DNA of 64,000 bases from Propioniciclava sp. MC1595 (GTDB lineage: Bacteria > Actinomycetota > Actinomycetes > Propionibacteriales > Propionibacteriaceae): positions 2,604,001 through 2,668,000 of the forward strand of contig NZ_CP071870.1 in NCBI RefSeq assembly GCF_017569205.1. Direction: 5' to 3'. Both the position numbers and the translations under genes were made by a program. The notes beneath the pieces were generated by a model. It saw only the letters and a list, made by a program, of their open reading frames with translations. It did no database searches and was not told the origin of the DNA. Shown piece by piece: positions 13,561-21,323 of this stretch (its first letter is position 1; the number at the start of each line of letters is the position of its first letter).

Positions 13561-14016
13561 TCACCGGTCGCTCCCGGCCCAGTCCACGAGCCCGTCGGCG
13601 TCGTGGCTGCCCCCGGGCCACACGGCCCGGACGATGCCCGCCGCGGCGAGGGCCTTGCGGCACCCGGGGCACGGCGGGTCGGTGATGTAGGCGGTGGCGC
13701 CCTTGGTGTCGCGGGTGGCGAACAGCAGGGCGTTCACCTCGGCGTGGATGGCGATGCAGAAGCCGGGGGTCCCGGGACGGTCGTAGTCGCCCAGGCCCGG
13801 CACGGCGTCGTAGCCGAGCTGCCCGCGCGGGCAGGCCCCCTCGAGGCAGTCCGGCCGCCCCGGCGCGGCCCCGTTGTAGCCGGTGGCGATGATCCGCCGC
13901 TCGTGGACCAGCACGGCGCCGACCCGGCGCCGGGTGCACTTGGCCCTCCGGGCGACCGCGTCCGCGATCCCCAGGAAGTAGTCGTCCCACCCGGGCACGG
14001 TGACGCCGTCGTCCAC
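13561..14016 (-). CDS. dCMP deaminase / ComEB-like cytidylate deaminase
   Basis: A 151-aa zinc deaminase. Residues in order: DDYFLGIADAVARRAKCTRRRVGAV (typical dCMP deaminase start), CxxGxCPRG insertion region, HAEVNALL with the Zn-binding His and catalytic Glu near residue 95, and PPCPGC with the two Zn-binding Cys near 122. It probably deaminates dCMP to dUMP for thymidylate synthesis. The GTG at 14016 follows a GAGGAGG at 6 nt. It starts 15 bp after the ribY-like stop and could be co-transcribed with it. Confidence 0.85.
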   Translation of the reverse strand: MDDGVTVPGWDDYFLGIADAVARRAKCTRRRVGAVLVHERRIIATGYNGAAPGRPDCLEGACPRGQLGYDAVPGLGDYDRPGTPGFCIAIHAEVNALLFATRDTKGATAYITDPPCPGCRKALAAAGIVRAVWPGGSHDADGLVDWAGSDR

Positions 14017-14030
14017 GTCAGACCTCCTCG

Positions 14031-15041
14031 TCAGCCCTCGACGAACTCGTTCGTCATCGCCTCGGCAGGATCGACCGCGGCGGTCATGAGCCCCGTCTCG
14101 AGCATGAAGTCCGTCATCGCGGCCCACTCCTGCGCGTCCATTGTGCCGGTCGCGCGGCCCGCGGGCGCGGTCCACAACGGAATGGTCGCCTCCAGCGTCG
14201 CGAGGGCGGACGCCTCGGCCCCGGCCTGGTCGAGGGTCGGGATGTGCTTCTTGCCCGCCGCGACGGCGCTGGCGGGCTCGGCGACGGTCCGCTCCAGGCC
14301 GGCCACCATGGCGTGCGCGACCTTGCGCGCCGTCCCGGGGTTGGCCTTCAGGTTGGCGCCCGTGGTCACCAGCACGATGCTGACCAGGGGGAGCTCGCCG
14401 TCGGCGGCCAGCGGGATCGCCCGGGTGGGGATGCCGGCCAGCCCGAACTGGACCTGGTCGTTGTTGGAGAAGCCGACCACGGCGTCCACCTTGCCGGTGG
14501 TCAGCGCGGCCTGGGCGGTGTAGCCGATCTCGACCACCTCGACGTCGGACTCCGTGAGCCCGGCCCCGGCGAGCGCGGCCTGCAGGCCGAACCAGCTCTC
14601 GCCGAACTTGCCGGGCAGGCCGATCCGCAGGCCCGCGAGGTCGGCGACCGACTGCGCCGGCGACACGTCCGGGACGATCAGCACCACCGGGTAGCGGTGG
14701 TAGTACTGCGCGATCGCCACCAGGTCCAAGCCCTCGGCGCGCGCCTGCACCATCTCGTCCCCACCCGCGACGACGTAGTCCTCCTGGCCCGCGACGAGCG
14801 CGGTGAACAGGCCCTCCTGCGCGCCGTGGTGGCGCAGGGTCGCGTCGAGACCCTGCTCGGTGAACAGGCCCTCCTCGGCGGCGACGTAGAAGGGGGCGAA
14901 TTGGATGTCGGGGATGTAGGTGAGGCCGACGGTGGCCTTCGCGGGCCCCGTGTCGGTGCCGACGGGGGTGCGGGCGCACCCGGTCAGGACCAGGGCGACG
15001 GCGGCCACGAGGGCGAGGGCGACGCGGACGGTGCGGTGCAT
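14031..15041 (-). CDS. ribY: Riboflavin ABC transporter substrate-binding lipoprotein (RibY-like)
   Basis: A 336-aa periplasmic-binding-protein homologue of the NMT1/THI5 family: lipoprotein signal with lipobox LVLTGC, then VGLTYIPDIQFAPFYVAAEEGLF and the family's GGDEMVQARAEGLD segment. Sequence alone would suggest thiamine precursor or nitrate/sulfonate-type uptake. The upstream FMN riboswitch, which covers this gene and the permease, points to riboflavin instead, as in the RibXY system. RBS AAGGAAGG lies 6 nt before the ATG. Fourteen bases separate it from the permease. Confidence 0.82.
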   Translation of the reverse strand: MHRTVRVALALVAAVALVLTGCARTPVGTDTGPAKATVGLTYIPDIQFAPFYVAAEEGLFTEQGLDATLRHHGAQEGLFTALVAGQEDYVVAGGDEMVQARAEGLDLVAIAQYYHRYPVVLIVPDVSPAQSVADLAGLRIGLPGKFGESWFGLQAALAGAGLTESDVEVVEIGYTAQAALTTGKVDAVVGFSNNDQVQFGLAGIPTRAIPLAADGELPLVSIVLVTTGANLKANPGTARKVAHAMVAGLERTVAEPASAVAAGKKHIPTLDQAGAEASALATLEATIPLWTAPAGRATGTMDAQEWAAMTDFMLETGLMTAAVDPAEAMTNEFVEG

Positions 15042-15054
15042 GGGAGTCCTTCCT

Positions 15055-15864
15055 TCAGGGTCGGTCCGTGCGCAGCAGCGACGCGACGGTGCGGCTGCGG
15101 CGTTCGATGAGGTGGATGAGGCCGTACAGGCCGGAGGCCATGGCGCAGAGCACGACGATGGTGGCGAACATCCCGGCGGTGTCGACCGAGTCGCGCTGGA
15201 CGGTGAGCAGCTGGCCGAGCCCGGACCCACCCATGACCATCTCGCCGACGACGGCGCCGGTGACCGACAGGGTGAAGCCGTTGCGGAGGCCGGCCAGCAC
15301 GTTCGGCAGGGCCAGCGGCAGTTCGATGTGGCGCAGGAGCGCGACGCTGCCCGCGCCGTCCATGCGGGCGGCGTCGACGACCTGGGGGTCCACGTGGCGC
15401 AGCCCGACGACCGACGAGACGAGGATCGGGAAGAAGACCATCAGCGCGCACAGCAGGATGATGGGGCCCAGCCCGTAGCCGACCCAGATGGCCAGCAGCG
15501 GGGCCAGCGCGATGGCCGGGATGGCCTGCGTCGCCCCCAGGAAGGGGGTCACGGCGGCGTGCAGCAGGCGGCTGCGGTGGATCGCGATCGCCAGGGGCAG
15601 CGCCACCACAGCGCCCAGCAGGCTGCCGCCGACGGCCTCGGTGAAGGTCGCCCGCACGGCCGGCCAGAAGGCCGCGGCCCCGAGGGCGGCGACGAGCCGC
15701 TCGGCGACCGCCAGCGGGGACGGCAGCATGTACGGCGGCGGGGCGGCGACGACCACGACGAGGGCCCACGCGGCCAGGAGGCCGAGGCCGAACAGCCACG
15801 GGGCGGCGGCGAGCAGGCCGGTGGGGCGCGGGCGTCGCGGCTCGCGTGGTGTGCTGGACGACAC
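15055..15864 (-). CDS. ribX: Riboflavin ABC transporter permease (RibX-like)
   Basis: A 269-aa ABC permease of the SsuC/ThiX class with six predicted helices and the cytoplasmic EAA loop (VDAARMDGAGSVALLRHIELPLALPNV, near residue 175). It is the first gene after an FMN riboswitch. The GTG at 15864 is preceded by GGGGAGGG at about 4 nt; this ribosome site lies in a hairpin arm. No ATPase gene is adjacent, so the transporter needs an ATPase encoded elsewhere, or a shared one. Confidence 0.82.
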   Translation of the reverse strand: MSSSTPREPRRPRPTGLLAAAPWLFGLGLLAAWALVVVVAAPPPYMLPSPLAVAERLVAALGAAAFWPAVRATFTEAVGGSLLGAVVALPLAIAIHRSRLLHAAVTPFLGATQAIPAIALAPLLAIWVGYGLGPIILLCALMVFFPILVSSVVGLRHVDPQVVDAARMDGAGSVALLRHIELPLALPNVLAGLRNGFTLSVTGAVVGEMVMGGSGLGQLLTVQRDSVDTAGMFATIVVLCAMASGLYGLIHLIERRSRTVASLLRTDRP

Positions 15865-15866
15865 CG

Positions 15867-15900
15867 GACCCTCCCCTCTCGCTCTGCGCCGGGGCAGGGT
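15867..15900 (-). promoter_or_regulatory. RBS-sequestering hairpin (expression platform of the FMN riboswitch)
   Basis: ACCCTGCCCC (15900-15891) can pair with GGGGAGGGT (15876-15868), leaving one bulged G; the latter is the ribosome-binding site of ribX. A nearby CCTCCC (15906-15901) can pair either with this site or with GGGAGG at the 3' end of the aptamer (15966-15961), so ligand binding could switch the ribosome site between open and closed. Confidence 0.55.
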
Positions 15901-15952
15901 GGGAGGATCTCGACGGGCCCGGTCGCACGCGGATGCGCGTGCGCGGACACGT

Positions 15953-16080
15953 CGCGTGCGCCTCCCATCCGGACTTTGACCGTCGGTCCCGGAATTCCAC
16001 CGGGTCAGCCAGGGGCCCTGGTGGGCCACTGGGTCGCGGACTGTAACCGCCGGTTCGGATTTTCACCGACCCCGGAGCAC
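15953..16080 (-). promoter_or_regulatory. FMN riboswitch (RFN element)
   Basis: The minus strand carries the near-universal RFN core: GGGGTCGGTGAAAATCCGA, ACCGGCGGTTACAGTCCGCGA, then GACCCGGTGGAATTCCGG, GACCGACGGTCAAAGTCCGG and ATGGGAG. All the conserved loops are in order and spacing. It ends about 90 nt before the ribX start. A TAACCT hexamer at 16102-16097, overlapping the stop of the upstream gene, is a suitable -10 and would start the transcript near 16090. Confidence 0.95.
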
Positions 16081-16099
16081 GTGTGTGTTCGAGGTCAGG

Positions 16100-17047
16100 T
16101 TACCCCACCGGGCGTGCGGCCCACGCCTGCAGTTGCTCGGCGGACCCGAAGAACACGTTGCGGTCGAGGTGGTTCTCCACCGCGCGCTGCCACAGCGTCG
16201 GGCGTTCCCAGCCTGCGGGCAGCTCGCCCGGGACCTGCGCGTGGTCGAACAGCCACAGCGGGCGCGAGCCGAACGTGGTGTCGCCGCCGGTGCACTCGGC
16301 CCACACCTCGGTCTTGGTGTAGATCACCGGGTTCCGGCCGGACAGGCGGCGGTACTCGTCGGAGAACTCCCGGACCCAGGCGACCATCTGCTCGCGGTCC
16401 AGCCCGTGGCAGCGGTCGCCCTCCTCGGCGAACTCGAGGTCGAGCGCCCCCGGGAGCGTGCGCCCGTCGGGCAGCCAGGCCCCGCCGTTGGCGTGGAAGA
16501 AGCGCGCCTGCAGCGTCCCGGACGACTGCCCCGGCCGCGCGTAGTGGTAGGCGCCCTGCACCAGGCCCGCGCCGCGGGCCCCCGCGCGCTGGTCGTCGTG
16601 GGTGGGGCTCACGTGCTGGGTGCCCTCCGTGGCCTTCACGTACGTGAAGAGGTGCCCGGACGCCAGCAGGCCCGGCCAGTCCACCCGCGGCTGGTAGCGG
16701 GAGACGTCGACGCCCGCGACGCCCTCGCCGGCGCGCCAGTCCACCTCGGCCGGGGGTGCGGGGGTGCTCGACGCCACGGCAGCCGCGGACGCGGACGCCT
16801 CTGCGGCCCGCGCCCTGGCCCGTTCCGCCTCGGCCTGCGCGGCCCGGACCTGGGCCGCGTCGACCGAGGCCGCCTCCACGGCCACGGGGCTCGCGGTGGG
16901 CTCCTCCGGCGTGACGACGGAGTCCGACGCCGTCGGCGCCACGGCGGGCGGGGTCAGCGAGAGCGCGGCGGGGCCGACGCAGCCGGCCAGCGCGAGCACG
17001 GCGGCGCCGGCTGCCCAGCGGGCTCGCACGACTCGTCCCTCCCCCAT
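16100..17047 (-). CDS. Glycoside hydrolase family 25 (lysozyme-like) lipoprotein
   Basis: A 315-aa secreted protein. The signal peptide ends in lipobox LALAGC, followed by a Pro/Ala/Thr-rich linker to about residue 100. The GH25 muramidase domain follows: GVAGVDVSRYQ, FTYVKATEGT, GAYHYARPG, and ALDLEF with the catalytic Asp/Glu. It should cleave the MurNAc-GlcNAc bond of peptidoglycan. I choose the ATG at 17047, since it gives a proper signal peptide and a TAGGGT hexamer lies 7 nt upstream (leaderless pattern). Not functionally tied to the riboflavin genes downstream. Confidence 0.88.
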   Translation of the reverse strand: MGEGRVVRARWAAGAAVLALAGCVGPAALSLTPPAVAPTASDSVVTPEEPTASPVAVEAASVDAAQVRAAQAEAERARARAAEASASAAAVASSTPAPPAEVDWRAGEGVAGVDVSRYQPRVDWPGLLASGHLFTYVKATEGTQHVSPTHDDQRAGARGAGLVQGAYHYARPGQSSGTLQARFFHANGGAWLPDGRTLPGALDLEFAEEGDRCHGLDREQMVAWVREFSDEYRRLSGRNPVIYTKTEVWAECTGGDTTFGSRPLWLFDHAQVPGELPAGWERPTLWQRAVENHLDRNVFFGSAEQLQAWAARPVG

Positions 17048-17086
17048 CCGGGGCACCCTACCCCGAAATCCGGGAGACATCAGACG

Positions 17087-18607
17087 TCAGCCGAAGTCAA
17101 CGCCCTGGGCGAGCTGGACCGAGCCCGAGTAGTTGATCGTGTTCGTGGCCCGTCGCATGTAGGCGCGCCACGCGTCCGAGCCGGACTCGCGGCCGCCGCC
17201 GGTCTCCTTCTCGCCGCCGAACGCGCCACCGATCTCGGCGCCCGAGGTGCCGGCGTTGACGTTGGCGATGCCGGTGTCGGCGCCGGACGCCCCGAGGTAG
17301 CGCTCGGCCTCCAGCACGTCGTTGCTGAACAGGCCGCTGGAGAGCCCCTGCGGGACCGCGTTGTGCAGCGCGATGGCCTCGTCGAAGTCCGACCAGGTGA
17401 GCACGTACAGGATCGGCGCGAAGGTCTCGGTGAGCACCACGCCCTCCTGGGCGGGCATCCGCACCAGGGCGGGGCGCACCCAGAAGCCCTCGGCGTCCAC
17501 GTCGGCGCGCTCGCCGCCGGAGACCACCTCGCCGCCCTGGGCCTTCGCCTTCTCCAGCGAGGCCTGCATCGCGTCGAACGCTGCCTCGTTCACCAGCGGG
17601 CCGAGCAGGACGCCGTCGGCGAACGGGTCACCGGCCTGCAGCGACTCGAAGGCCCGGGCGACGCGCCCGACGACCTCGTCGGCGACGGACTCGTGCACCA
17701 GCAGTCGCCGGGTCGAGGTGCACCGCTGCCCCGCCGTGCCGGCCGCGCCGAACACGATCGAGCTGACGGCCTGGTCGAGGTTCGCGCTCGGGGTGACGAT
17801 CACGGCGTTGTTGCCGCCGAGCTCGAGCAGCGAGCGGCCGAAGCGGGCGGCCACGCGCGGCCCGACCTCGCGGCCCATCCGAGTGGAACCGGTCGCCGAC
17901 ACCAGGGCCACGCGCGGGTCGTCGACGAGCGCCTCTCCGATGGCCCGGTCGCCGATGACGACCGCGTGCAGGCCCTCGGGGGCGCCGACCTCTGCCATCG
18001 CGCGGCGCAGCAGGGCGTCGCAGCCCAGCGCGCACAGCGGGGTGAGCTCGGACGGCTTCCACACCACGGGGTCGCCGCACACCAGCGCGATCGCGGTGTT
18101 CCACGACCAGACGGCGACCGGGAAGTTGAACGCCGAGATGACCCCGACGACGCCGAGCGGCTGCCAGGTCTCCTGCAGGCGGTGCCCGACGCGCTCGCTG
18201 GGCATGGTCCGCCCGTACAGCTGGCGGGAGAGGCCGACGGCGAAGTCGCAGATGTCGATCATCTCCTGGACCTCGCCCAAGGCCTCGGTGTGGATCTTGC
18301 CGGCCTCGATGGTGACGAGGGCGGCGAGGTCCTCCTTGTGCTCGCCGATCAGCTCGCCGAGGCGCTTGACCAGCGCGCCGCGCACGGGGGCGGGCACCTC
18401 GCGCCAGGCGACGAAGGCCTCGGACGCCGCGGCCACGGCGTCCGACACCTCGGCCGGGGTGTGCGTACGGACGCCGCACAGCTCCTCGCCGGTGAGCGGC
18501 GAGCGGGCGCGGACGGCGCCGTCGTCGACGCACCAGGCGTCCCGGTCGACGCCGAGGGCGGCCAGTGCGGCCTCGGCGCGCTCGCGGAGTTGGGCGGTGG
18601 TCTTCAT
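17087..18607 (-). CDS. amaB: L-piperidine-6-carboxylate / aminoadipate-semialdehyde dehydrogenase
   Basis: A 506-aa NAD-dependent aldehyde dehydrogenase of the ALDH7 (antiquitin) type. Visible: VISAFNFPVAVWSWNTAIALVCGD near residue 165, LELGGNNAV with the general-base Glu near 270, and GQRCTSTRRLLVH with the catalytic Cys near 305. It oxidises 2-aminoadipate 6-semialdehyde (or its cyclic form) to 2-aminoadipate, the step after lysine 6-aminotransferase, whose gene is the first of this operon. The ATG overlaps the hglS stop (ATGA). Confidence 0.9.
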   Translation of the reverse strand: MKTTAQLRERAEAALAALGVDRDAWCVDDGAVRARSPLTGEELCGVRTHTPAEVSDAVAAASEAFVAWREVPAPVRGALVKRLGELIGEHKEDLAALVTIEAGKIHTEALGEVQEMIDICDFAVGLSRQLYGRTMPSERVGHRLQETWQPLGVVGVISAFNFPVAVWSWNTAIALVCGDPVVWKPSELTPLCALGCDALLRRAMAEVGAPEGLHAVVIGDRAIGEALVDDPRVALVSATGSTRMGREVGPRVAARFGRSLLELGGNNAVIVTPSANLDQAVSSIVFGAAGTAGQRCTSTRRLLVHESVADEVVGRVARAFESLQAGDPFADGVLLGPLVNEAAFDAMQASLEKAKAQGGEVVSGGERADVDAEGFWVRPALVRMPAQEGVVLTETFAPILYVLTWSDFDEAIALHNAVPQGLSSGLFSNDVLEAERYLGASGADTGIANVNAGTSGAEIGGAFGGEKETGGGRESGSDAWRAYMRRATNTINYSGSVQLAQGVDFG

Positions 18608-19905
18608 CGGGTCTCCTCCATGGCGTCGCGCGACGCCTGCTGCTGTGCTGCGTACAACTCCATCGGGTCGTGGACGGTGCGGCCCATCGCCTCGGCCAGC
18701 CACGCCTCGTCGCGGTGCGACCCCTCGAGCGTGACATCGCGGCTGCCCGCATGAGCGAGGTTCGAGGCGAAGATGCCCGCCGCCGAGCGCGGCAGGAAGT
18801 CCTCGTAGACGATGGGCGTCCGGACGCCATCGACCCACTCGAAGAACGCCAGGCCGGCCTCGGCCAGGCCATCCTCGTCGACGGGCCAGTTGGCGCGCCA
18901 GACGTCGAGCTTCACCTGGTTGCGCTCGTCGGCCGACATCCCGGCCGAGCGCTCGTCGATCTCGACGATGAGGCGGTCGTACAGGTCACGCCCCTTCGGG
19001 GTCAGCGCGATGCCGCGCTGCTCGACCTCGCCGAAGCGCACCGACAGGGTGCCGTCGACGACCGAACCGTCGGCCTCGCGGAAGCGGCGGCGTTCGGCCA
19101 GCGCCTTGAACGAGGTCTGGCGCAGCAGGACGTCCGGGCCCTCCCACGCCGGGGGGCCCTGGATCTCGTCGATCATGGCGATGCCCAACTCGGTCATGCG
19201 GCGGTAGAGGTCGTCGATGTCGAGCACGCGCGGGGTCAGGTGGTTGATGTGCGTGGCTCGGACGCCGCCGATGTCGGCCGCGACGCCGGAGATCGTGGAG
19301 AGGCGCTCGTACCACGCCCGGCCGACGGGCTCGTCGGAGAGCTCGAAGCAGGCGGTGGCGAGGGCGAGAAACTCCGTGGCTTCGGCGTCCTCCAACCCGC
19401 CGTCCCGCTCGGCCTTCTCGGCCAGGGCCACGACGTCGTCGCCGAACAGTTCGCGGTCGGCGAGGAAGGCGTCCAGCTCGGCCTGCAGGGCCTCGTCGAA
19501 GTAGCGGCGGTCGTCGGTGACCAACACCGAGCAGAACACCCGGAACGGGTTGATCGCCAGCGCCTCCTTCGTCGTCGGCCGGAACGCCGTCGACACGATC
19601 GGGAGCGACGTGGCGGCGTCCCCGCGCAGGTCGTAGAAGCCGACGGGCTCCATGCCGAGCGCCGCGAACACCTGCGCGACGCGCGCCAGTTCATGGGCCG
19701 TGCCGACGCGGATGGCGCCGTGCCGCTCGGCCGTGACCCGGTCGATGCGGCCGAGGCGCTCGGCCGTGTCGGGGTGGGCGGCCATGTGGTCGGCGTTCAC
19801 GGCGGTGGAGACGTCCACGAGCGTGTTGTACGCGGGCACCTCGGTGCCGTACATCGCCGACAGCGAGCGCGCGAACGCCGCGCGCAGGGCGTGGGTGTCG
19901 TGCAT
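18604..19905 (-). CDS. hglS: 2-oxoadipate dioxygenase/decarboxylase (HglS, DUF1338)
   Basis: A 433-aa protein of the DUF1338/YdcJ family, related to HglS of Pseudomonas putida, a non-heme Fe(II) enzyme that turns 2-oxoadipate into D-2-hydroxyglutarate and CO2. The metal and substrate residues expected from that family are visible: HGAIRVGT (first His plus substrate-binding Arg) near residue 60, THINHLTPR near 225, and GEVEQRGIALTPKG with the third ligand Glu near 290. The position between lat and amaB supports the assignment. Start is ATG, 1 nt after the lat stop. Confidence 0.88.
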   Translation of the reverse strand: MHDTHALRAAFARSLSAMYGTEVPAYNTLVDVSTAVNADHMAAHPDTAERLGRIDRVTAERHGAIRVGTAHELARVAQVFAALGMEPVGFYDLRGDAATSLPIVSTAFRPTTKEALAINPFRVFCSVLVTDDRRYFDEALQAELDAFLADRELFGDDVVALAEKAERDGGLEDAEATEFLALATACFELSDEPVGRAWYERLSTISGVAADIGGVRATHINHLTPRVLDIDDLYRRMTELGIAMIDEIQGPPAWEGPDVLLRQTSFKALAERRRFREADGSVVDGTLSVRFGEVEQRGIALTPKGRDLYDRLIVEIDERSAGMSADERNQVKLDVWRANWPVDEDGLAEAGLAFFEWVDGVRTPIVYEDFLPRSAAGIFASNLAHAGSRDVTLEGSHRDEAWLAEAMGRTVHDPMELYAAQQQASRDAMEETR

Positions 19906-19906
19906 G

Positions 19907-21235
19907 TCAGCCCTCCATCGCGGTGAGCACGCGGTCGATGGCGTCCACGGCCTTGTCGATCGCGGCGCGCTCGACCGTCAGGGGCGGGCGGACGCGCAGC
20001 GAGCGCTCACCGCAGCCCAGCATGAGCACCCTCTCGTCGTCCTGCAGCCGGCGGATGGCCTCGTTGCGGGTCGCGGTGTCCGGCAGGGAGATGGCGCACA
20101 TGAGGCCGAGGCCGCGGGCGTTGGTGACGATGGAGTGGCGGGACTGCACCTCCTCGAGGCGGGAGAGCAAGTGCTCGCCCTCGGTGCGGGCGCGCCCCAT
20201 GAGGTCGTCGGCCTCGATGACCTCGAGGATGCGGCGCGAGCGGACCATGTCGGTCAGGTTGCCGCCCCACGTGGAGTTGATCCGGCTGGAGACCTTGAAC
20301 ACGTTCTGCTCGACCTCGTCGACGCGGCCGCCGGCGGTGATGCCGCAGACCTGCAGCTTCTTGCCGAAGCTCATCACGTCGGGGGCCACGCCGTAGTTCT
20401 GCCAGGCCCACGGCGTCCCGGTCATGCCGCCGCCGGTCTGCACCTCGTCGAAGATGAACAGGGCGTCGTTCGCGTGGCACAGGGCCTTCATCTGCTCCAG
20501 GAAACCCTGGCGGAAGCGGTGGTCGCCGCCCTCGCCCTGGATCGGCTCCATGATGAACGCCGCGATGTCGTGCGGGTTCGCGGCGAAGGCCGCCTCGGCC
20601 TCGGCGAGCGTGGCCGCCTCGACGGCGTCCATGTCGCGCTCGGCCGCCCAGTACGGGGTGGACAGGCGCGGCCAGTCGAACTTCGGGAACCGGGCGACCT
20701 TGTTGGGGTCGGTGTTGGTGAGGCTCATGGTGTAGCCCGAGCGGCCGTGGAAGGCCTCCTTCAGGTGCATGATCTTCGTGCCCAGCTCGGGGCTGCGGCC
20801 GTGCGCCTCGTTGTGGCGCGACTTCCAGTCGAAGGCCGTCTTGAGGGCGTTCTCGACGGCGAGGCTGCCGCCCTCGATGAAGAAGTAGTGGGGCAGCTGG
20901 TCGGCGCCCATGACGCGCGCGAAGGTGTCGACGAAGCGGGCCATCGCGACGGTGTAGATGTCGGAGTTGGACGGCTTGTTCAGCGCGGCCTCGAGCAGTT
21001 CGGCGCGGAAGGTCTCGTCCTCGGTCAGCCCCGGGTGGTTCATGCCCAGGGCGTTGGAGGCGAAGAACGTGAACATGTCGAGGAACTCGTCCCCCGTGGC
21101 CTCGTCGACCAGCGTGGTGCCGCGCGAGCGGTTGAGGTCGAGGACCAGGCGCATGCCGTCGACGAGGATGTGGCGACCCAAGGAGGCGAATACCTCGCCG
21201 GGCGCGATGGTGTCGTTCGTGAGCGTGTCAACCAT
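19907..21235 (-). CDS. lat: L-lysine 6-transaminase
   Basis: A 442-aa class III PLP aminotransferase that moves the epsilon-amino group of lysine to 2-oxoglutarate, yielding 2-aminoadipate 6-semialdehyde. Features are FFASNALGMNHPGL near residue 55, IEGGSLAVENALKTAFDWKSRHN (PLP phosphate loop) near 125, FDEVQTGGG near 260 and the PLP Lys in SFGKKLQVCG near 290. The ATG at 21235 is preferred over one 10 codons upstream, because TATCGT lies 6 nt before it (leaderless). First gene of lat-hglS-amaB. Confidence 0.92.
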   Translation of the reverse strand: MVDTLTNDTIAPGEVFASLGRHILVDGMRLVLDLNRSRGTTLVDEATGDEFLDMFTFFASNALGMNHPGLTEDETFRAELLEAALNKPSNSDIYTVAMARFVDTFARVMGADQLPHYFFIEGGSLAVENALKTAFDWKSRHNEAHGRSPELGTKIMHLKEAFHGRSGYTMSLTNTDPNKVARFPKFDWPRLSTPYWAAERDMDAVEAATLAEAEAAFAANPHDIAAFIMEPIQGEGGDHRFRQGFLEQMKALCHANDALFIFDEVQTGGGMTGTPWAWQNYGVAPDVMSFGKKLQVCGITAGGRVDEVEQNVFKVSSRINSTWGGNLTDMVRSRRILEVIEADDLMGRARTEGEHLLSRLEEVQSRHSIVTNARGLGLMCAISLPDTATRNEAIRRLQDDERVLMLGCGERSLRVRPPLTVERAAIDKAVDAIDRVLTAMEG

Positions 21236-21323
21236 TCGGGGACGATACCCCGGGAGTAGCCGCAAAATCTACGCTCGAATCGCATATTCGCCTGTGATTC
21301 TTCGCCGTGCCCCGTCTCGCGGA
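21236..21323 (-). promoter_or_regulatory. Promoter region of the lysine operon
   Basis: TATCGT at 21247-21242 is a good -10, 6 nt from the lat ATG. This AT-richer stretch also has GGCGAA repeated at 8-nt spacing (around 21304-21285 on the minus strand) and GCGATTCGAGCG, possible sites for an Lrp/AsnC-type lysine-responsive regulator. That role is only a guess, since no regulator gene is nearby. Confidence 0.4.

Follow-up and report, generated by a model that had tools for sequence, protein, structure and literature searches.

RibXY was predicted as a riboflavin transporter in the Chloroflexi, where it is described without an ATPase and as replacing riboflavin synthesis in Roseiflexus castenholzii (PMC3766115). 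The ribXY genes of Chloroflexus aurantiacus rescue an E. coli riboflavin auxotroph (PMC4418817). That study describes the system as an adjacent permease and binding protein of COG0600 and COG0715, and its initial criterion for RibY was an identity of 38% or more, over 80%, to the C. aurantiacus protein. For a few Chloroflexi it notes an ATPase gene linked to ribXY, named ribZ, and it lists ribXY in Actinobacteria both with and without riboflavin biosynthesis (PMC4418817). According to a further report RibXY occurs in prototrophs as well as auxotrophs, and the facilitator-type riboflavin transporters considered there were seen only in prototrophs (PMC6593275).

The window analysed here, a stretch of 64,000 nucleotides of Propioniciclava sp. 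MC1595 (NZ_CP071870.1, positions 2,604,001 to 2,668,000), very probably carries a RibXY riboflavin importer under the control of an FMN riboswitch, its Propioniciclava-like source being a predicted riboflavin auxotroph. A first-pass annotation of the sequence had already proposed riboflavin uptake by a RibXY-type system, a reading supported by the full riboswitch, by the RibY clade and by the RibA, RibB and RibH families not being found in the genome. It had also placed the riboswitch directly ahead of a permease and an NMT1/THI5-like protein, and the PF00528 and PF09084 genes are indeed adjacent to each other, downstream of the riboswitch and on the same strand (Table 1).

Table 1. Features of the ribXY locus, in window positions.
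Feature	Position	Strand	Evidence
FMN riboswitch aptamer (RFN element)	15953..16083	-	cmscan RF00050 and R1 model
Leader, 88 nt	15865..15952	-	CCUCCC at 15901-15906; Shine-Dalgarno GGGGAGGG at 15869-15876; read and folded
ribX, ABC importer permease (BPD_transp_1)	15055..15864	-	PF00528, 97.9 bits; GTG start with Shine-Dalgarno
ribY, NMT1/THI5-type substrate-binding lipoprotein	14031..15041	-	PF09084, 136 bits
CDA-family deaminase gene	13561..14016	-	PF00383, 69.9 bits; ComEB model 74.4 bits, below its cut-off of 219
GH25 family gene (upstream of the aptamer)	16100-17080

Scanning the whole window with Rfam cmscan gave a match to RF00050 of 95 bits (cut-off 66.2, E 1.2e-20) covering the full length of the model (1-138), and this aptamer is the sole RF00050 match in the genome (3.43 Mb, one contig). 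The first-pass annotation had described a nearly complete RFN core within 14031-16080 and proposed a search with this Rfam family; the element proves to be full length, although that interval ends 3 bases short of the aptamer. The aptamer scores 130.5 bits with R1, our own FMN riboswitch model, which was built from riboswitches of the family, the window sequence itself among them and some taken from genomes that were also scored. Rfam itself confirms the FMN riboswitch both in the window and in L177, a Ktedonobacterales locus.

The most likely start of ribX is the GTG at 15864, with GGGGAGGG just before it; the query for the PF00528 search was taken from 15879. In the leader the CCUCCC motif has two alternative partners, the Shine-Dalgarno sequence or a UGGGAGG at the 3' end of the aptamer. 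Because it can pair with either, repression of translation by FMN is suggested, and the ribX leader is, with moderate support, a predicted translational switch. The fold of the whole leader is somewhat better than that of shuffles (z -1.91), 8 of 200 shuffles being equally good. The window shares the motif with L107, L108, L110, L111, L174 and, as the variant CCUCCU, L109, six of the seven further members of its clade; the leader of the seventh, L112, lacks it. Across the wider set an anti-Shine-Dalgarno motif was found in 17 of 61 leaders against a shuffle mean of 25.4, so that there is no enrichment, and a family-wide motif was rejected on this count. A second test, of Shine-Dalgarno occlusion with mononucleotide shuffles of the upstream sequence as the control, put 41 of the 61 leaders below the shuffle mean (p 0.010 by the sign test and 0.008 by the Wilcoxon test) and 11 of them in the lowest tenth, so that occlusion is modestly greater than in shuffles. 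With the motif unenriched and the effect on occlusion modest, translational control is therefore only moderately supported.

RibY begins with a lipoprotein signal and an LTGC lipobox, as read by eye, and is predicted to be a riboflavin-binding lipoprotein. It is the sole RibY match in the genome at E 1e-3, and the second-best ribX-type match reaches 46 bits only. Its nearest named relatives come from a MAG labelled Propionibacterium (83%), from an uncultured Propioniciclava (77%) and from Propioniciclava sinopodophylli (76%), which makes Propioniciclava in the Propionibacteriaceae the most likely source. A confident AlphaFold2 model of the protein (mean pLDDT 92) has thiamin- and HMP-type binding proteins as its nearest folds, the closest being 4nmy (TM 0.78/0.86). 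With the sequences nearest RibY likewise belonging to thiamin- or HMP-binding proteins among those of solved structure (4nmy, 3ix1), and NMT1/THI5 as the name of the Pfam family, the pair could be taken for a ThiXY importer of thiamine or an HMP precursor, its FMN riboswitch being there by chance or for cross-regulation. We consider this very unlikely on the evidence of the tree and the gene neighbourhoods that follows. That the pair might instead import sulfonate or taurine and be mis-associated with a flavin riboswitch is extremely improbable: RibY does match the SsuA family model TIGR01728, but at 78.5 bits it falls below the curated cut-off of 163.5, and the flavin evidence also speaks against it.

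A phylogeny of the binding protein, which the first-pass annotation had suggested as a check, places RibY in a single clade of riboswitch-linked proteins (100/98), apart from four ThiY-like paralogues; the tree has 86 rows and was built without SsuA or a characterised RibY (C. aurantiacus), and its outgroup, 4nmy, lies on a very long branch and was given no weight. The loci of the four paralogues differ from that of the window in keeping with this separation, which argues against a thiamine importer: three have a TPP riboswitch, all four have an ATPase gene close by, and their matches to the FMN model are at chance level at most. Between the 81 RibY rows and the four ThiY-like rows 17 alignment columns are near-fixed for different residues. 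Among these, Q47-F48 is found in 81 of 81 RibY rows, in contrast to the D-H pair of the paralogues, a difference that again tells against a ThiY function; individual residues of this kind may have roles in ligand binding. At L084:6043-7011 a ThiY-like gene near a TPP riboswitch contains an in-frame stop, reflecting either decay or a sequencing error.

Profile searching with RibY brought up 501 relatives; the analysis retained the best 80 named loci, a set that includes near-duplicates. The ribX gene adjoins ribY in 79 of these, the eightieth (L176) stopping at the end of its contig. In 71 of the best 80 an FMN riboswitch was found by R1 no more than 1 kb upstream of ribX, a conservation that speaks against a ThiXY system. 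The nine other loci comprise three that stop at the contig end at this point (L134, L137 and L176) and six, five from Streptomyces and one from Saccharothrix, in which the riboswitch is absent upstream of ribX. These riboswitch-less relatives (L155, L162, L165, L168, L183 and L184) have 45-47% identity, and L165 has an FMN riboswitch about 5 kb away on the opposite strand. The nearest Chloroflexota relative found is that of L177, with 46% identity over query residues 22-334 and an RF00050 match.

A search of the genome for ribBA and ribH had also been proposed in the earlier annotation. The Pfam families of RibB, RibH and RibA have no match in the genome, the same searches being positive in 14, 14 and 10 of 14 control genomes respectively, and RibF is present (143.5 bits). 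The source genome is therefore that of a predicted riboflavin auxotroph, judged from its gene content, which should be able to convert riboflavin to FMN and FAD. Its sole RibD_C match is a protein of 188 residues in which Pfam finds RibD_C only and no deaminase domain. A search for PF04973 (PnuC/RibM), positive in 5 of the 14 controls, gave no match in it. Control by FMN would suit the salvage of any flavin, and the substrate might accordingly be a derivative such as FMN, lumichrome or roseoflavin. This too has only a slim chance of being correct: a cell without RibA, RibB and RibH needs external riboflavin or FMN, RibF is present, and the rescue by C. aurantiacus ribXY is described as occurring on riboflavin (PMC4418817).

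The distribution of RibY was followed through 147 Propionibacteriaceae genomes, 140 of which have RF00050 matches (138 above the cut-off) and 51 RibB matches. A best match of 115 bits or more scored a genome as RibY+, which gave 96 genomes, and weaker matches, including fragments in G123 and G065, were set aside. Among the 116 good genomes (at least 90% complete, at most 5% contaminated) 60 were RibY+/RibB-, 14 RibY+/RibB+, 10 RibY-/RibB- and 32 RibY-/RibB+, so that RibY is associated with the absence of RibB (Fisher p 2.2e-9, uncorrected for kinship), which is a further point against thiamine uptake; the corresponding counts for all 147 are 79, 17, 17 and 34. RibB is kept in 14 of the 74 good RibY+ genomes. 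In the genus of the window all 13 sampled genomes have the riboswitch and no RibB match, and 12 have a strong RibY match, the thirteenth, G123 (73% complete), having a fragment. In five genera (g9, g14, g16, g27 and g28) some good RibY+ genomes keep RibB and others lack it, a mixture that suggests repeated loss. FMN riboswitches precede ribXY in 19 of 20 wider family loci. The one exception, L073, is the ribXY locus of a RibB+ family genome and has no FMN riboswitch match at E 0.001.

Of the 10 good RibY-/RibB- genomes, the six that were read each have a PF04973 gene following the riboswitch. Because of this position we infer that the PF04973 proteins of these sister genomes are RibM and not PnuC. 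In these loci (L187-L192), whose genomes have no RibB match, the order is FMN riboswitch, PF04973 gene and hisE/hisG-like genes, the his names being assigned by eye.

As in the described RibXY systems the question arises of which ATPase drives transport. Pfam finds no ATPase gene among the operon genes, and searching the best 80 loci at E 1e-4 with two ThiZ-like ATPases gave no match within 2.5 kb of ribXY, the flank being short on at least one side in 13 of them. Searching the genome for ThiZ-like ATPases gave 73 matches (the top-scoring 40% identical), a count that includes parts of one protein. A dedicated ATPase of the sulfonate, taurine or nitrate type is not evident among the best 9 of the 73, which were classified: the NrtCD, SsuB and TauB models are the best match for none of them. 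The best match is ProV-like and sits beside two permease matches. The second is UgpC-like, at 472 bits above the cut-off of 432, and is encoded at about 2828471-2829652 of the genome, two genes ahead of the cysteinyl-tRNA synthetase gene. Among the six genes that surround it within 9 kb Pfam detects neither an ABC permease nor a binding protein; they comprise methyltransferase, histidine kinase, VTT-like, DUF4032, cysteinyl-tRNA synthetase and SpoU methylase genes. Shared ATPases have been described, for example MsiK in Streptomyces (PMC6167110, PMC7658222), and our best guess at the motor of RibXY would be this orphan UgpC/MsiK-like protein. More tentatively, RibXY might be a lasting half-transporter without an ATPase of its own, in which the orphan UgpC/MsiK-like or the betaine-type ATPase powers vitamin B2 uptake across ABC-importer subfamilies.

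The deaminase gene, a third gene that the first-pass annotation left unmentioned, starts 14 bases past ribY and is probably co-transcribed with ribXY. It is 83-95% conserved beside ribY in many Propioniciclava and Propionicimonas loci, lies 1.9 kb from ribY in L114 and was not found in L111, L113 and L174 of the same group. A role in flavin metabolism was not adopted, since the gene is a patchy neighbour among relatives and plain genomic linkage explains its position equally well; a link to riboflavin is doubtful. Often a histidine kinase/response regulator pair and menA come after the deaminase gene, forming a recurrent block with it (names by eye). On the other side 16 bases separate the end of the GH25 gene from the aptamer, and the ribXY promoter would therefore have to lie in or near the end of that gene. 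Beyond it, at 17087-21265, are aldehyde dehydrogenase, DUF1338-like and lysine-aminotransferase-like frames in a row (names by eye), which we take to resemble lysine breakdown.

For the RibXY riboflavin importer we infer the substrate, the direction of transport, the ATPase and the detail of switching as follows. The RibY lipoprotein would bind riboflavin outside the membrane and RibX would pass it through, powered by an ATPase that is most likely shared and whose gene lies elsewhere, after which RibF would convert the imported riboflavin to FMN and FAD. When FMN is plentiful it would bind the leader, and CCUCCC would close the ribosome site GGGGAGGG, turning ribXY off; when FMN is short, the 3' end of the aptamer would be released to pair with CCUCCC, allowing translation of ribXY.

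On this analysis riboflavin is the likely substrate of a transporter that has its nearest annotated kin among systems for the uptake of thiamine precursors and sulfonates. The analysis also predicts riboflavin auxotrophy for one genus, and possibly for 70 of the 116 good Propionibacteriaceae genomes if judged by the absence of RibB alone, and it provides a complete genome in which to seek the ATPase borrowed by RibXY. A literature search for Propioniciclava together with riboflavin found no paper. Earlier publications already cover RibXY itself, the ATPase it lacks and its occurrence among actinobacteria and auxotrophs, and that the window is a further example is well supported.

Like RibM/PnuX (PF04973) in the six sister genomes, the window system stands under an FMN riboswitch, but the families are unrelated and the source genome has no PF04973 match. 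With ThiXYZ it shares protein families, fold and permease type; it differs in having an FMN and not a TPP riboswitch, in the position of RibY outside the group of four ThiY-like paralogues, and from the loci of those paralogues, with their own tree group, in riboswitch and nearby ATPase gene. Compared with RibXY of the Chloroflexi, the window locus is actinobacterial, lies in a one-contig genome in which RibA, RibB and RibH were not found and is followed by a deaminase gene; a ribZ-type ATPase, as in a few Chloroflexi, was not seen here. The RibY sequence comparison was made with the Chloroflexota locus L177 (46%). In the FMN riboswitch, the pairing of ribX with ribY, the combination of a permease with an NMT1-type protein, the ATPase-less operon and the predicted capacity to stand in for absent biosynthesis genes, the window locus is like the RibXY systems of the Chloroflexi.
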